A stretch of 64,000 nucleotides of DNA, from IMG/VR virus record IMGVR_UViG_3300031873_000001, positions 1 to 64,000 of that record. One strand, given 5' to 3'. Each line of letters begins with the position of its first letter. Positions within the stretch are counted from its first letter, which is position 1. Made by a program: the position numbers and the translations under genes. Below the pieces are notes generated by a model. The model was given only the letters and a program-made list of their open reading frames with translations. It ran no database searches and was not told where the DNA came from. Source of the DNA: a virus. Below are positions 1,829 through 61,069 of the stretch, piece after piece.

Positions 1829-4189
1829 ATGAGAGTCCTGATACTCGACACTGGTCTTGCCCTTGATCTGGCCAGGAGACTGGCGCAGGAGGGAGATGAG
1901 GTTTACTACTACCTCAACAAGATCAGGAACTATCCGGACGAGTCCGAAGCCCTTTACGGTAAAGGCCTCTTTGAAGAGTGGGGGGTCAAGCGGATCGACA
2001 TGTATGAGTCCATCCTGAGCTACGTCGACTACGTTATAGCAACGGATATCGGCTACGGGAAGCATCTCGACTACTTCCGGAAGAAGGGGACGCTGGTCTA
2101 CGGGGCCCCGTTCCTGGGCGAGAGGCTTGAGACGGACCGGGAGTTCGGCAGAGAGACCCTCGCAGGTTACGGGGTGAAGGTCCCGGAGGTCACAGTCCAC
2201 GATACCAAAGAGGACGCCGTCCAGCACATCAAGCAGAACCCTTCCGGCTACGCCTATAAGTCGGATGAGTCCCGCAACAAAAAGACCTTCGTGACCAAAT
2301 CTCCGGAGGCCATGATCAAGTTCCTGTCCGGCCTGTCCTCCTCGGCCCCGATCCGGCTTGAGAAGTTCATTGAGGGCGTGGAGATCGCCGTCGGAGGATT
2401 CTTCAATGGGCAGGAGTTCCTGGGGCCCAAACTGGTCTCCTTCGAGTACAACAAGACCTTCCCCGGGGATCTCGGGCCGATGAACTCGGAGATCGGAACG
2501 GCAATGTATTACGATGACACCGGAGGGAAGGCGTTTGCGGAGACCCTGCAGAAGATTGAGCCCTTCCTGCGGATGGTCGGCTACCGGGGCTACGTGGAGG
2601 TCTCCTGCATCGCCAACGAGAGCGGGACGCACGTCATTGAGTTCACCTGTTTCGACGAGAAGACCGAAATCCTGACCCAACGGGGCTGGCTGAAGTATAC
2701 GGAGGTTGTGGTTGGAGATATGGCCTTAGCTATCAATCCCCTAAATCGTAAGATAGAGTGGAAGAAAATCGTAGGGAAACGGGTGCGGGATTATGAGGGC
2801 GAGATGGTTAAAATCGGGAATAAGGCTTTAGATGTTTTGGTCACTCCTGATCATAATTTACTGATTACCAAGAGCGGGTTAGGGAAAACGGTTAAGGCAA
2901 ATACAATTCCACAAGGATGGTCGTTAATTAGAAGTGGAACCTGGGAGGGTGATGAATTCTCTTATATTGAGATCCCGGAATATATTCATTTTAGAAAAAT
3001 CGGTCATAAACATAATGCTACCGTTAAGACTGTCCGACCTTTACGGCGGGTAGATGCTCCTATCTTTATGAAATTCTTGGGGTTATTTTTGTCGGAAGGA
3101 AGTTTGGGAGCACCCTACAACGGAATGAAAAGACAGGTCATTATTTCTCAAAGTCCCAAGTCTTTACGCCGAAAAGAGATAGAATCTATATTGAAAATCT
3201 TTGGTTTCAAGTATTTTACAGATAATTCTTCTGGGGCATTTGTGATATGCTCGATCCAATTATGTTCTTTTTTGAAATCTCTCGGATTAGATGTTAAGGC
3301 TTGGGAGAAGAGAATTCCAGGAGAATTTAAAAATTTATCGCCTGCGCTTCTGGAATCTCTAATTCACGGGTATGCTCTTGGGGATGGTTCTTGGCATAAG
3401 GGAGATGGTCAATTAACTCTATATACTACGTCGGAAAAGTTAGCCGACGATTTACAAGAAGCTATCATTAAAGTTGGAAAAGTTTCGAATATTGCCACAA
3501 GAACCAAGTTCAGGAAACGGCCTTACTATTCTTTATCCATAAGAGACGAAAGAAAGGACTACTTTCTGGACAATCGGGTAATTAAGAAAGAACATTATAC
3601 TGGAAAAGTCTGGGACGTCGAAGTTGAAGATCTACATACTCTTTTAGTTCGTCGAAACGGGAAGGCATTTTTCTCTGGGAATTGCCGCTTTGGGTATCCA
3701 GTATATATCATTCAGATGACGCTCCACAAACGCTTCGGGGAGGTGCTCTCGGGGATCGCCTACGGGACCCTTCTGGATCCACGGTACAGGCCGAAGTGGG
3801 ATATCTTGAAGCACCGCTGGGCGATCGGGACGTGCTGGTGCGTGAACGGCTACCCCTACACGGAGGTCATGAAAGCCCGGGGCGGTGACTGGTCGATCGT
3901 CTACGGCATCGACAAGGCGATTAAGGAAGGGGCCCGGATCGGCTTCTTCGGGGTGGTCAAGGAGGATGGTAAGTATATCGCCCTCCCGGATTACGGGCGG
4001 ACGGTCTGCATCACGGGACAGGGGCAGACGATCTCCCAGGCCATGCAGGACATGAACGAAGGGGCCCAGAAGATATGGATCCCGGACGGCTTCTACCGCT
4101 ACGATATCGGAGCCCGCACGATCGCCGAGGGGCAGAATCTTCTCGAGTGGGGCTACGTCGACAAGGACTGGGCGAAGAGTTTCCGTTAA
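1829..4189 (+). CDS. PurD-like ATP-grasp ligase interrupted by an intein
   Basis: The extein (residues 1-273 and 619-786, 441 aa when joined) is an ATP-grasp protein with the architecture of phosphoribosylamine-glycine ligase. It has a pre-ATP-grasp N-domain, an ATP-grasp body with EKFIEGVEIAVGGFFNG, a catalytic motif of EF-x-x-RFG type (EFT/CRFGYP) and a C-terminal YRYDIGART resembling the end of PurD. The PurD GGREHA motif near the N-terminus is absent (it reads LDTGLALDLARRL), so the substrate is probably not phosphoribosylamine. An intein sits exactly in the catalytic motif. The paralogue at 10872 is intein-free and also 441 aa. Lying between tape measure and fibre genes, it may modify a tail protein; a metabolic role cannot be excluded. 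Confidence 0.8.
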   Translation: MRVLILDTGLALDLARRLAQEGDEVYYYLNKIRNYPDESEALYGKGLFEEWGVKRIDMYESILSYVDYVIATDIGYGKHLDYFRKKGTLVYGAPFLGERLETDREFGRETLAGYGVKVPEVTVHDTKEDAVQHIKQNPSGYAYKSDESRNKKTFVTKSPEAMIKFLSGLSSSAPIRLEKFIEGVEIAVGGFFNGQEFLGPKLVSFEYNKTFPGDLGPMNSEIGTAMYYDDTGGKAFAETLQKIEPFLRMVGYRGYVEVSCIANESGTHVIEFTCFDEKTEILTQRGWLKYTEVVVGDMALAINPLNRKIEWKKIVGKRVRDYEGEMVKIGNKALDVLVTPDHNLLITKSGLGKTVKANTIPQGWSLIRSGTWEGDEFSYIEIPEYIHFRKIGHKHNATVKTVRPLRRVDAPIFMKFLGLFLSEGSLGAPYNGMKRQVIISQSPKSLRRKEIESILKIFGFKYFTDNSSGAFVICSIQLCSFLKSLGLDVKAWEKRIPGEFKNLSPALLESLIHGYALGDGSWHKGDGQLTLYTTSEKLADDLQEAIIKVGKVSNIATRTKFRKRPYYSLSIRDERKDYFLDNRVIKKEHYTGKVWDVEVEDLHTLLVRRNGKAFFSGNCRFGYPVYIIQMTLHKRFGEVLSGIAYGTLLDPRYRPKWDILKHRWAIGTCWCVNGYPYTEVMKARGGDWSIVYGIDKAIKEGARIGFFGVVKEDGKYIALPDYGRTVCITGQGQTISQAMQDMNEGAQKIWIPDGFYRYDIGARTIAEGQNLLEWGYVDKDWAKSFR
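2648..3682 (+). mobile_element. Intein with LAGLIDADG homing endonuclease domain (345 aa)
   Basis: Residues 274-618 of the ATP-grasp precursor. The N-terminal splice block starts with Cys (CFDEKTEILTQRGW); the block B-like VTPDHNLLI carries the conserved His. Two LAGLIDADG-like helices are seen (FLGLFLSEGSL and LIHGYALGDGSW). The C-terminal blocks are VWDVEVEDLHTLLV and FFSGN, with Cys as the +1 extein residue. The penultimate residue is Gly rather than the usual His, which is unusual but compatible with splicing in some inteins. Boundaries are supported by the intein-free paralogue, which reads EFTARFGYP at the junction. The intein is clearly more AT-rich than the exteins, a sign of separate origin. 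Confidence 0.93.
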
Positions 4190-57388: not shown

Positions 57389-57651
57389 GTTCGAAGCCGA
57401 AGTTCAAGATCGGCCAGCGGGTCAGGGTAACTTTTGAACATACGCCGGAAGAAGAGGGGTTGCTCAATGAGGCCGGGACGATCGTGGAAATTAAGGCCAG
57501 CGATTTTCTCTATGGGGTCCAGATGGATAAGGAGTCTCTCGGCCTTCACGACTGCTCGGGGAAAGCCAAGAAGGGAACAGGGAGATACCTCGAGGAGGTC
57601 CAGCTCGAGAGAGAAGAGGAGAAGCCCTTTGGAGTGGAGGGCGAGATATGA
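57385..57651 (+). CDS. Small SH3/KOW-like protein with FGVEGEI tail (88 aa)
   Basis: GTG start overlapping the previous stop. KFKIGQRVRVTFEHTPEEEG, LNEAGTIVEIKASDFLYGV and RYLEEVQLEREEE form one small barrel; the protein ends EEEKPFGVEGEI. Second of three consecutive genes with this type of tail. Confidence 0.7.
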   Translation: MSSKPKFKIGQRVRVTFEHTPEEEGLLNEAGTIVEIKASDFLYGVQMDKESLGLHDCSGKAKKGTGRYLEEVQLEREEEKPFGVEGEI

Positions 57652-57875
57652 TATTCGGAAATCAGTTTGATCTGTGCCCTCGGGTCCGGGTCGTGAGCGT
57701 TAACCAGGATTCCGACTTGAAGTTCCTGGGGGAGTTAGGATACGTTGTCGATCAGGAAGATGCTGGTCGGTTTGTTAGAGTTAAGCTCGATAACTTCCAC
57801 GTGGAAAAGATTTTCTGGCACGATCAGATCGAGGTTTACCGGGAGGAAGCCTTCGGGGTGATCGGGACCTTATAG
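57648..57875 (+). CDS. Small SH3/KOW-like protein with FGVIGTL tail (75 aa)
   Basis: ATGA overlap. Barrel strands CPRVRVVSVNQDSDLKFL, GELGYVVDQEDAGRFVRVKL and WHDQIEVYREE; ends REEAFGVIGTL. Third of the consecutive tailed genes. The DNA of the tail differs from that of its neighbours, so the peptide itself seems to be under selection. Confidence 0.7.
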   Translation: MIFGNQFDLCPRVRVVSVNQDSDLKFLGELGYVVDQEDAGRFVRVKLDNFHVEKIFWHDQIEVYREEAFGVIGTL

Positions 57876-57883
57876 GAGGAGTC

Positions 57884-58720
57884 ATGGGAGATAGAACTGG
57901 AATCGAATGGACGGACGCCACGCTGAACCTCGTCTCGGGATGCTCCAAGATTTCCGAGGCCTGCGAGCGGTGCTACGCCGAGCGGGACTCTCTCCGCTAC
58001 GGCTACACGAAGCATCCCTGGACCGAAGCGAATGCAGGAAAGAACGTCGTCCTGCATTCAGAGAGGCTTAAGATCCCTCTCAAGTGGAAAAGACCGAGAC
58101 GAGTGTTCACTTGTAGCATGGGAGACTTATTCCATCCCCTCGTCCCGTTTAACTTCATCTGTGATGCCTTCGCTATGATGACCTTCGCCAAGCAACACAC
58201 CTTCCAGGTTCTCACCAAGAGGCCGGAGCGGGCCCTTGAGTTCTTCAACACCTGGGGATCGAAGAGCTGGCCGCTCCCGAACGTCCAGATGATCGTGACT
58301 GCGGAAAATCAGAAGCGGGCGTATGAGAGGATCCCGCTTCTCCTGCAGATCCCAGCGGCCGTCCGTGGGGTGAGCATAGAGCCTATGCTTAGTGAGATGG
58401 ACTTGACGGAATACATGTCGTGCGATCGACGGACTACTCTGGATGGCATTCCGTGTGAGCCCTATTTTAAGGGGACGGTCGGCACTCGACTTTTAACTCT
58501 CGATTGGGTGATCGTGGGGGGGGAGTCGGGTCCAGGCGCCCGGATGACGAACCCATCGTGGATAAGGTCGATCCTCGACCAATGCAAGGCGGCTGGGATC
58601 CCGTTCTTTATGAAGCAGGCCGGAGAGGCTCTAGCTAAGGCGTGGGGATGCAGGGATCGGAAGGGAGGTAACCCGGAGGAGTGGCCGGAGGAATTCAGGG
58701 TGCGGGAGTTTCCTTCTTAA
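57884..58720 (+). CDS. DUF5131 phage protein (Gp37/Gp68 family, radical-SAM-like) (278 aa)
   Basis: The family signature is clear: TGIEWTDATLNLVSGCSKI, then SEACERCYAE (three Cys in radical-SAM-like spacing), VFTCSMGDLFHPLVP, FQVLTKRPER, VRGVSIEPML, LDWVIVGGESGPGARM and IPFFMKQAG. Widely found in phages and often called Gp37/Gp68. A cluster-bound radical-SAM-type fold is likely, but the reaction is unknown. SD AGGAGG; follows the tailed SH3 genes. Confidence 0.9.
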   Translation: MGDRTGIEWTDATLNLVSGCSKISEACERCYAERDSLRYGYTKHPWTEANAGKNVVLHSERLKIPLKWKRPRRVFTCSMGDLFHPLVPFNFICDAFAMMTFAKQHTFQVLTKRPERALEFFNTWGSKSWPLPNVQMIVTAENQKRAYERIPLLLQIPAAVRGVSIEPMLSEMDLTEYMSCDRRTTLDGIPCEPYFKGTVGTRLLTLDWVIVGGESGPGARMTNPSWIRSILDQCKAAGIPFFMKQAGEALAKAWGCRDRKGGNPEEWPEEFRVREFPS

Positions 58721-58732
58721 ATAGGAGGGGAG

Positions 58733-58993
58733 ATGTCGATTAAAACTGCAGGGGTAGCTTGGTTTACGACGTCCACTGAGCATTTCGGTATCGTCGTCGC
58801 GCTCGACGAGATCACGAATCAATTGAAGGCGTATATCGGAGTGGTGCCCGGAGGGGACGAGGAGGACGACATTGAACTCATCAAAGCCTATGGCGCGAAG
58901 TTCCCTGTGGAGGTGGCGATCCAGGCTGTGCTGAAGAGCGGGTCCGTGCATTACATGCCCGGGGCGTTTACCCAGTATCCGGCCGCTTGGTAA
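58733..58993 (+). CDS. Small early protein (86 aa)
   Basis: SD AGGAGGGGAG. GVAWFTTSTEHFGIVVALDE, LKAYIGVVPGGDEEDDIELI, KAYGAKFPVEVAIQAVL, ending YPAAW. An alpha/beta protein of a type frequent in phage early regions; function not known. Confidence 0.6.
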   Translation: MSIKTAGVAWFTTSTEHFGIVVALDEITNQLKAYIGVVPGGDEEDDIELIKAYGAKFPVEVAIQAVLKSGSVHYMPGAFTQYPAAW

Positions 58994-58997
58994 TCCC

Positions 58998-59408
58998 ATG
59001 ATCATGAAGGCCATGCACACCTCGTCCACCACGACCACGCATTGGGCTACCCCGGTGTTGATCTATCAGGAGCTTAATGCTAGGTTCGCCTTCAACGACG
59101 ATCCCTGCCCTCTGCACGGGACGGGAGGCTTGGAGCGGCCGTGGGGATCCCGGACCTACGTCAACCCTCCCTACGGCAAGGAGATCGGGAAGTGGATCGC
59201 AAGGGCGTACCAGGAGGGCCAGGCCGGGAAGCTCGTGGTGATGCTCCTGCCCTCGAGGACGGATACGATATGGTTTCACCGTTATATTTTACATCACGCC
59301 AGGGAGATAATATTTATCAAGGGAAGGCTTAGATTTAATGACGCAAAGGGAAGAGCTCCATTCCCATCAATGGTAGTTGTATTTGGACGTAGTGATGTGT
59401 TACAATAG
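58998..59408 (+). CDS. Phage Dam-like N6-adenine methyltransferase with replaced 3' end (136 aa)
   Basis: Short phage 'Dam' family: TTHWATPVLIYQELNARFAF, NDDPCPLHG, SRTYVNPPYGKEIGKWIARA (catalytic NPPY), GKLVVMLLPSRTDTIWFHRY and EIIFIKGRLRFNDAKGRAPF. From about base 59281 the sequence becomes AT-rich, and the same C-terminal segment occurs again, in normal composition, at 59868-60011 behind a homing endonuclease gene. The current 3' end thus seems to have arrived with that element, restoring a full-length enzyme. Confidence 0.88.
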   Translation: MIMKAMHTSSTTTTHWATPVLIYQELNARFAFNDDPCPLHGTGGLERPWGSRTYVNPPYGKEIGKWIARAYQEGQAGKLVVMLLPSRTDTIWFHRYILHHAREIIFIKGRLRFNDAKGRAPFPSMVVVFGRSDVLQ

Positions 59409-59418
59409 TGGCATCACT
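59377..59418 (+). promoter_or_regulatory. Possible promoter of the LAGLIDADG gene with inverted repeat
   Basis: TTGTAT (59377-59382), 18 bp, TACAAT (59401-59406). An inverted repeat AGTGATG (59391-59397)/CATCACT (59412-59418) spans the -10 box. Confidence 0.4.
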
Positions 59419-59430
59419 AACTAAGGAAAG

Positions 59431-59883
59431 ATGAAAATGACGGAGATGGAAAAGGCTTATTTAGCTGGTCTGTTTGACGGGGAGGGGTGTATACATATTC
59501 GCTTTAACAGATCTAATGGCCGTGGAGGACATGTAAGTGATCTTTATTCCTTGATTACTAAATTGTCGATGTGTGATGAGCGAGTGGTTAAATATGCGTG
59601 GAAGAAATTTGGAGTGGGTCATGTTGGGAAGTATAGTCCGAGAAATGAGAGATGGAATCCGGGATGGTCATGGGTTTGCTCGAGCCAAGACGCAAAAAAT
59701 GTTCTTTTAATTTTAAGGCCATATTTACGAACGAAGGCGAAGGAGGCAGATATTGCTTTGAATTTTATGAAGCTTCCCTTGGCTCGAGGTGGTCGGAATA
59801 GAACCGATCCAAAATTGGTGTTGCGTAGGAGACGGTTTTATCTTAGGCTAAGGGAAGCAAAGCGTGGCATCGGTACGTCATGA
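59431..59883 (+). CDS. LAGLIDADG homing endonuclease (150 aa)
   Basis: YLAGLFDGEGCIHIRF is the LAGLIDADG helix and following strand; one motif per chain suggests a homodimer. Other segments: LYSLITKLSMCDERVVKYAW, WVCSSQDAKNVLLILRPYL and KAKEADIALNFMKL. AT-rich, unlike the flanking genes. Its last codons (GTACGTCATGA) run into the displaced original 3' end of the Dam-like gene, which supplies the stop codon. It lies between the repaired methylase gene and that displaced end. Confidence 0.92.
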   Translation: MKMTEMEKAYLAGLFDGEGCIHIRFNRSNGRGGHVSDLYSLITKLSMCDERVVKYAWKKFGVGHVGKYSPRNERWNPGWSWVCSSQDAKNVLLILRPYLRTKAKEADIALNFMKLPLARGGRNRTDPKLVLRRRRFYLRLREAKRGIGTS

Positions 59884-60011
59884 AGGCTCAGGAGATCAGG
59901 TTTATCAAGGGCCGGCTCTGCTTCAACGACAACAAGAGGAAGCGGGCCCCGTTCCCGTCCTGCGTGGTGGTGTTCGGGAAGAATGATCGAAGAAGAGGGA
60001 GGCTTGGATGA
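59868..60011 (+). pseudogene. Displaced original 3' end of the Dam-like methylase gene
   Basis: Reads in frame HRYVMKAQEIRFIKGRL, then CFNDNKRKRAPFPSCVVVF and a stop after GRLG. It aligns with HRYILHHAREIIFIKGRL and RFNDAKGRAPFPSMVVVF at the end of the intact gene. An ATG at 59880 (ATGA overlap with the endonuclease stop) could still allow a 43-aa product. GC-rich like the rest of the methylase gene, so this is the original end. Confidence 0.88.
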
Positions 60012-60030
60012 GAAATAAGAGGAGGGAGAA

Positions 60031-60327
60031 GTGATTAACTTTAATACCCAGGATGTATCCGCACTTCCGAAGGTGATCACCTGGAAGCAGTTCTTTGAGA
60101 AGCAGGGGATCGATCCCCTGAGCGGGGAGGCGACCCGGAATTACTTCCGGGACAACATAACTTTCGGGAGGCTTCCCGTCGCCCTGTATTTTTGCCCCTA
60201 CTGCACGACGATCCTGTGGGAAGGGAACTATCCCTGCCCGGAGCCCACGTGCCCGAACCACAATCTCAAACCCGGGGAGCCTCCCAAGACGAAGTCTCTT
60301 GAGGGGCTGTGTCCCCCACTAGGATAA
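60031..60327 (+). CDS. Small zinc-binding protein (98 aa)
   Basis: GTG start with SD GGAGGGAG. Helical N-half (ITWKQFFEKQGIDPLSGEA, TRNYFRDNITFGRLPV), then CPYCTTILWEGNYPCPEPTC (four Cys in zinc-ribbon spacing). Not recognised; fits the many small zinc proteins of this region. Confidence 0.6.
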   Translation: MINFNTQDVSALPKVITWKQFFEKQGIDPLSGEATRNYFRDNITFGRLPVALYFCPYCTTILWEGNYPCPEPTCPNHNLKPGEPPKTKSLEGLCPPLG

Positions 60328-60330
60328 GCC

Positions 60331-60840
60331 ATGCATAAGATCGGAGAGCGGGTCGGGGCGATGGCCTCGGCGGACGAGACGACGGCCTTCATTTTCGGGT
60401 ACGGGGTTTACGAAGGGGAGGAGATCCCGACTCCGGACGTGGTTATGCTGGGGCGCCGGTACATCGATCTGTGCCCCGGAAACAAGAACCCCAAGATCAA
60501 GCTCGACAACGGGAAGGTCGTCTACGGATGCGAGTGCTGGTGGGGTGATGAGGAGACGATGAAGAGGTCGATCGCAGGTCGGAAGGTGGAGGTGGTCAAT
60601 ATCGATGATTACCGGAAGGAAGGGGCAAAGCTTTTAACGGAGAACATTTTAGGAAGGGAGGATGGAGCAATGGCTGATAAACAGAAGTGTCCGCAGTGTG
60701 GCGGGTTGAGCGAGAAGATTATCGAATGCCAGACCTGCCACCAACCCGGGTGCGTGGAGGAGTGCATCCCCGGAGGCCAGGGGACGAAGTGCGTCTCCTG
60801 CGAGCAGGATGAGGGGATGGCGAAGGCGAAGGGAGGCTGA
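60331..60840 (+). CDS. KOW-like domain fused to a zinc ribbon (169 aa)
   Basis: The N-half (HKIGERVGAMASADETTAF, IFGYGVYEGEEIPT, KIKLDNGKVVYGCECWWGDE) is a small beta domain common in phage proteins. The C-half (QKCPQCGGLSEKIIECQTC, HQPGCVEECIPGG, KCVSCEQDEG) is a zinc-ribbon or B-box-like region. A good SD (AAGGGAGG) and ATG lie at ~60670 exactly before the zinc part, so the C-half may also be made alone from an internal start. Confidence 0.6.
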   Translation: MHKIGERVGAMASADETTAFIFGYGVYEGEEIPTPDVVMLGRRYIDLCPGNKNPKIKLDNGKVVYGCECWWGDEETMKRSIAGRKVEVVNIDDYRKEGAKLLTENILGREDGAMADKQKCPQCGGLSEKIIECQTCHQPGCVEECIPGGQGTKCVSCEQDEGMAKAKGG

Positions 60841-60841
60841 G

Positions 60842-61069
60842 ATGGACGATCGACAGGTCGTTCTGTTGGAGGGCTTTCTCGAAGGGCGTTGCGTTGGCCG
60901 GGTGCATCTCCTGCGGGGGGACAAGCCCTGGGATGGGAGCCAGATCGGGGATGCGGGAGAGGAAGTGGGCTGGGGGAAGTTTGCCACGCAGGAAGAGGCT
61001 TCGCAGTGGCTCAAGGACGTCTGCGGGGCTGAAGAGGTGGTCGAGCACAAGGACCGTCCGGGCGGCTAA
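60842..61069 (+). CDS. Small early protein (75 aa)
   Basis: ATG 60842, two bases after the previous stop. VVLLEGFLEGRCVGRVHLL, RGDKPWDGSQIGDAGEEVG, FATQEEASQWLKDVCG. Acidic alpha/beta protein; not recognised. Confidence 0.55.
   Translation: MDDRQVVLLEGFLEGRCVGRVHLLRGDKPWDGSQIGDAGEEVGWGKFATQEEASQWLKDVCGAEEVVEHKDRPGG

Follow-up and report, generated by a model that had tools for sequence, protein, structure and literature searches.

Background

A homing endonuclease whose gene lands in coding sequence has to spare the gene that it targets; integrating phages and islands restore the 3' end of theirs (tRNA genes, icd). Phage endonucleases of the homing kind have been described as relying on introns, inteins or split genes (PMC2988022) or, in methylases, on out-of-frame overprinting (PMC11855218). 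The split genes are exemplified by mobE in nrdA of phage Aeh1 and mobA in the T4 topoisomerase gene 60, both of which are free-standing endonucleases (PMC2988022), and the insertions known in actinophage DNA methylases comprise the ShiLan domain and a "lone LAGLIDADG" type (PMC11855218). A different arrangement, the "gene hybrid", in which an endonuclease ORF interrupts a coding gene, a foreign C-terminus completes that gene in frame and the native C-terminus ends up behind the ORF, has been found in mitochondrial atp6 of Allomyces macrogynus and in atp6, cox2, nad3 (LAGLIDADG) and atp9 (GIY-YIG) of Glomus sp.; there the native C-terminus is 91–98% identical to its relatives in nucleotide sequence and the inserted one 64–81%, and both mobility and transcription have been tested (PMC3630166). 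Within the literature searched, a carried replacement end was known earlier only from these fungal mitochondria, and no phage case was found in the open-access literature (subscription journals lay mostly outside the search).

Here we describe such an arrangement in a bacterial virus. The DNA analysed (the window) is a stretch of 64,000 nucleotides, positions 1 to 64,000 of the 159,536-bp IMG/VR virus record IMGVR_UViG_3300031873_000001, a metagenomic contig. We consider it very probable that codons 92 and 93 of a Dam-family methylase gene were separated by a free-standing LAGLIDADG gene that came with a foreign Dam 3' end, and that a full-length hybrid arose thereby.

Organisation of the locus

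The features of the locus are listed in Table 1. The methylase gene at 58998–59408 is the only Dam gene found in a search of the entire 159,536-bp record; its hybrid ORF is complete and all conserved Dam columns are present. The last 44 codons of this ORF are AT-rich, it is ended by a TAG stop at 59406–59408, and many further stops in the Dam frame precede the displaced end. The foreign and displaced 3' ends lie in the same reading frame, the latter stopping with TGA at 60011, and they are homologous to each other with 28 of 41 amino acids identical (blastp E 8e-14), a similarity too high to be due to chance. The initial annotation had placed an endonuclease gene inside a Dam-like gene with a second 3' end behind it, and each of these parts lies where it was placed, with matches to PF05869 and to PF00961/PF14528. 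It had also noted an AT-rich Dam end, which does exist, although its start is at about codon 93 (59274), three codons earlier than the ~59281 proposed, and had the endonuclease take its last codons and stop from the displaced Dam end, as is indeed the case (TGA 59881–59883 is inside that end).

Table 1. Features of the interrupted Dam locus (positions in the window)
Feature	Position	Strand	Evidence
Hybrid Dam-family N6-adenine methyltransferase gene, 136 aa	58998..59408	+	PF05869 E 1.8e-15; phrog_111 E 8.5e-36
Native 5' part of Dam, codons 1–92	58998..59273	+	244/276 nt identical to L002; GC3 0.85
Inserted element, ~591 bp	59274..59864	+	Absent from L002, where Dam is contiguous; GC 0.42 vs 0.56 for the window
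Foreign Dam 3' end, codons 93 to stop TAG, F93/PFPSM type	59274..59408	+	84/131 aligned nt identical to sister; GC3 0.31
TGGCATC, direct repeat copy 1, right after the foreign stop	59409..59415	+	16/24 identical to 59865–59888 in register
LAGLIDADG endonuclease ORF, one motif (AGLFDGEG)	59431..59883	+	PF00961, PF14528, phrog_5046; GC3 0.40
Displaced native Dam 3' end, 49 codons with stop, W93/PFPSC type	59865..60011	+	138/147 nt identical to L002; GC3 0.78
TGGCATC, direct repeat copy 2, first bases of the displaced Dam end	59865..59871	+	See copy 1
Last five endonuclease codons (GIGTS) and stop, out of the Dam frame	59866..59883	+	Sequence

The base composition follows the same divisions. GC3 is high in the native 5' part, low in both the foreign 3' end and the endonuclease gene, and high again in the displaced 3' end (Table 1); overall GC is 0.385 in the foreign Dam end and 0.43 in the endonuclease gene. 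About 1% of other 591-bp segments are as GC-poor as the insert, and all of these are within one stretch, 2626–3797.

Comparison with known insertions

A search of positions 58900–60100 gave no Rfam match to group I or group II introns at E values up to 1. An intein was rejected because the TAG stop precedes the endonuclease gene and the Dam frame has stops before the displaced end is reached. The empty site in a sister phage (see below), the lack of an Rfam match and the stop codon together bear out the proposal of the initial annotation that the element carries its own version of the target's end and is neither intron nor intein. A split gene of the mobE/nrdA type that needs assembly was rejected since the upstream Dam ORF is complete. 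Like mobE and mobA, the window endonuclease is found in a phage coding gene without an intron or intein, but in those systems two polypeptides must reassemble, whereas the window target is restored as one polypeptide by the carried end.

The window element shares a phage methylase target with the ShiLan and lone LAGLIDADG insertions; in the ShiLan type, however, the methylase frame stays open through an out-of-frame endonuclease, while here a foreign stop closes it. Since no methylase frame crosses the insert, in contrast to the open frames of the Ailee and DotProduct genes, a ShiLan-type out-of-frame insertion was rejected. We note that Gordonia phages Ailee and Keitabear and Mycobacterium phage DotProduct have a LAGLIDADG ORF inside a C5-cytosine methylase gene whose frame is open, which is probably the lone LAGLIDADG insertion reported in actinophages (PMC11855218). 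The Gordonia phage and DotProduct LAGLIDADG proteins are distant relatives of the window endonuclease (33–34% identity).

Integrating phages and islands resemble the window element in that they bring along a copy of the 3' end of the target, which keeps insertion from killing the gene; they differ in using an integrase and a short att identity, as opposed to an endonuclease and repair, and the end carried here is a diverged homologue. The similarity to the mitochondrial gene hybrids is greater. An endonuclease ORF lies inside a conserved gene, a foreign C-terminus is attached to that gene in frame, and a native C-terminus very similar to that of the sister phage is displaced behind the endonuclease ORF, with nucleotide identities for the displaced and foreign ends (94% and 64%) that closely resemble those of the mitochondrial cases. 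Unlike the latter, the window element sits in a bacterial virus and targets a DNA methylase; its endonuclease is unfused, with its own start and ribosome-binding site and a stop from the displaced end.

The empty site in a sister phage

The sister phage is IMGVR_UViG_3300035660_000001 (160,139 bp; loci L002 and L254), which is 80–92% identical to the window in the aligned blocks around Dam. Its Dam gene is uninterrupted, the counterpart of 59273 running straight into that of 59865–60011, and it thus provides the relative joining ~59280 to 59868–60011 that the initial annotation had predicted. The native 5' part of the window gene is 88% identical to it in nucleotide sequence and the displaced 3' end 94%, with seven synonymous and one nonsynonymous codon differences in the latter, as against 64% for the inserted foreign 3' end, whose best C-terminal matches are Dam proteins of the FH...PFPSM type and not the sister. 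An endonuclease profile search of the sister genome gave no match. With 94% identity to the sister the displaced segment is evidently the native 3' end, and the attached segment, at 64% and AT-rich like the endonuclease gene, is evidently foreign. Because the native end is undamaged, with so few differences, it points to a recent event.

Downstream of the displaced end the window again matches the sister, at 82–91%. This continuity, following the 94% identity of the displaced end itself, bears on whether the locus could be an assembly chimera, that is, whether reads of two co-occurring phages, one of them AT-rich with a Dam and an endonuclease gene, were joined at the Dam sequence that they share. 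The contig is metagenomic and there is homologous sequence at the junctions, but a chimera would require two switches at the same codon and a return to the same genome, and the low homology there (64% in nucleotide sequence) is a poor substrate for misassembly, so that we regard such an origin as extremely unlikely. We also note that a comparison of window positions 57404–60900 with L002 shows several small genes, on either side of the methylase gene, to be present in one genome and not in the other; for instance, 58733–58993 is found only in the window and ~375 bp behind Dam only in L002. To judge by these two genomes, the Dam neighbourhood is a hot spot of gain and loss.

The initial annotation had named as evidence against an insertion the presence in relatives of two tandem C-termini without the endonuclease. 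None was seen in 96 Dam loci or in 103 phage records with a Dam C-terminal match (103 places), the window being the only exception to the rule of a single end; among the 96 loci, it is also the only one with two C-termini split by an endonuclease. One further locus, L071, has two adjoining Dam fragments, which look like a frameshift.

The junctions and the exchanged C-terminal module

Native Dam sequence breaks off after ...DTIW (TGG 59271–59273). The foreign end starts with FHRY and the displaced end with WHRY; both begin at Dam position 93, and therefore no codon has been lost or doubled and the insert is codon-exact between Dam codons 92 and 93. The left edge can be placed only to within a few bases (about 59265–59277) because the sister differs at 59265–59270. 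The right edge is within a shared GTGGCA(TC) region, which codes for Dam W-H in one reading and for the conserved KRG[IL] terminus of related endonucleases in another, and since it fits the two alike, the right junction may have formed by microhomology.

The two TGGCATC copies, right after the foreign stop and at the start of the displaced end, lie in sequence that is 16/24 identical and in the same frame, as might be expected if the locus arose in two steps, with a foreign tail added in tandem first and the endonuclease inserted later with duplication of its target TGGCATC. As a target-site duplication the repeat is suggestive in its exact place (P 7.5e-5 in fixed register), but it is not significant overall (P 0.13 over a 70x70 search), and GTGGCATC could result solely from the KRG[IL] terminus that is conserved in related endonucleases. 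A history in two steps is also at odds with the atypical base composition that the foreign end and the endonuclease gene have in common, and with the finding that no tandem C-terminus without an endonuclease exists among the Dam loci and phage records surveyed, and we think it unlikely. Insertion of the endonuclease gene and the foreign end together remains the reading that we prefer.

The sequence of the two ends shows what was exchanged. Among 81 distinct Dam ends, F93 occurs with PFPSM in 41 and with another sequence in one, and W93 occurs with PFPSA/C/V in 39 and with M in none, so that columns 93 and 125 covary 80:1 (Fisher P 2e-22, not corrected for relatedness of the ends). In the window F93/M125 (foreign) has been swapped for W93/C125 (displaced). 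Because the element carries F/M and the displaced end W/C, the co-adapted C-terminal module evidently moved as a unit, and the insertion swapped the complete co-varying module. This near-perfect F-M / W-A,C pairing in the Dam C-termini of phages is a useful marker of C-terminal swaps.

An AlphaFold model of the hybrid Dam has a mean pLDDT of 82, with C-terminal blocks mostly at 92 or more, and the folds nearest to it are adenine methyltransferases, E. coli Dam included. From the complete hybrid ORF, the good predicted fold and the intact co-varying module, we infer that methylase activity has probably been kept.

The endonuclease

The likely start of the endonuclease gene is the ATG at 59437, 9 nt after AAGGA (59423–59427). 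The protein has one LAGLIDADG motif with its acidic residue, and AGLFDGEG is conserved. Profile comparison groups it with I-MsoI and I-CreI, and fold comparison of the model finds the same two enzymes (TM about 0.75, E 3e-9 to 5e-8), so its likeness to them extends to fold, profile and the AGL.DGEG motif, although sequence identity is only ~20% and the gene is not inside a group I intron. By its predicted structure it is a member of the I-CreI/I-MsoI class, with the single-motif, homodimer-type fold of 140–170 amino acids. The AlphaFold pLDDT is 93.8, and the last helix ends at residue 145, which is the insert junction; the GIGTS tail sits outside the predicted fold. When the joined empty site was searched for a pseudo-palindromic target of the I-CreI type, it did not score above background (P about 0.58 over five centres), and such a target was rejected.

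The endonuclease stop overlaps the first ATG (59880) of the displaced Dam end in the sequence ATGA (59880–59883), which could allow translation of a 43-aa Dam remnant. Related endonuclease genes, too, often run into the start of the gene that follows: the overlap is 14 nt in Emma1919 (with ThyX), 13 nt in L146 and 56 nt in L101, so that termination within a neighbour's reading frame is common in the family. The ATGA overlap and the undamaged state of the remnant would suit a split gene that is in use, in which the displaced end is translated from ATG 59880 and its 43-aa product works with the methylase or otherwise, and nrdA/mobE is a precedent for a phage gene split into two working polypeptides (PMC2988022). 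We nevertheless consider this very unlikely, since the upstream ORF is already complete and a second piece is unneeded, and recent insertion accounts equally well for an undamaged remnant.

No close relative of the endonuclease was found in IMG/VR, the nearest endonuclease found is 38% identical, no exact-peptide match was found for the foreign Dam end, and in a search for the same element GTDB genomes gave only distant relatives. When 93 loci with related endonucleases were surveyed for C-terminal duplications on both strands, upstream and downstream, a clean case was present only in the window, and the raw matches at other loci were mostly low-complexity, high-GC artefacts. At L146 (1–2045) an endonuclease ORF lies between tandem paralogues of an SU10-adaptor-like gene; the paralogues are complete, and the locus was rejected as a second case. 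On other viral contigs, L156 and L158 (2998–4013), a related LAGLIDADG ORF adjoins a complete Dam-like gene; these were rejected as hybrids because the endonuclease ORF is 63 bp upstream of that gene. Members of this endonuclease family may thus have Dam genes as recurrent neighbours or targets.

Proposed mechanism

In the invaded gene the native 5' Dam part continues into the foreign end and so encodes a full-length hybrid methylase. The endonuclease gene follows with its own ribosome-binding site and without a stop of its own. The native 3' end lies behind it and is either untranslated or yields, at most, the 43-aa remnant. We propose that the endonuclease would cut an uninvaded Dam gene near codon 92/93, and that repair of the break would draw on an invaded or donor Dam allele, with homology on the 5' side, and would copy both the endonuclease gene and the 3' end of that allele; on the right, the repair would close within the native 3' end, perhaps at the microhomology GTGGCA(TC). 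The split site would no longer match the target of the enzyme and would thus be immune, and the carried 3' end would allow a coding gene to tolerate the insertion without splicing.

The sequences show that a gene which had been continuous was interrupted, that its new end is foreign, that the hybrid frame is intact and to which class the endonuclease belongs. Cutting and endonuclease-driven homing we infer: what one invaded copy and one close empty relative show is insertion and not endonuclease-driven transfer.

Implications

The window contains another AT-rich insert. An ATP-grasp-like gene at 1829–4189 has an in-frame one at about 2650–3790, from CFDEKTEILT to LLVRRNGKAFFSGN|C, and from its sequence the gene seems to carry an intein. 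If so, the same phage would house two mobile elements that spare their targets in different ways.

We suggest, tentatively and as something rather less than probable, that among the free-standing homing endonucleases of phages there is a class that replaces the 3' end of the target with a diverged, cleavage-resistant one and so invades essential coding positions. If that class exists, it would add a third way out to splicing and gene splitting, and its members would act as vehicles by which distant phage enzymes exchange co-adapted C-terminal modules. With an empty sister to compare, a phage case brings the process within reach of experiment in a kind of system that can be cultured. In a single step, such elements can exchange a third of an enzyme for a diverged but co-adapted module, and phylogenies of phage enzymes have to be read with this in mind; the remnant, if it decays in other genomes, would be mistaken there for a short gene in its own right.
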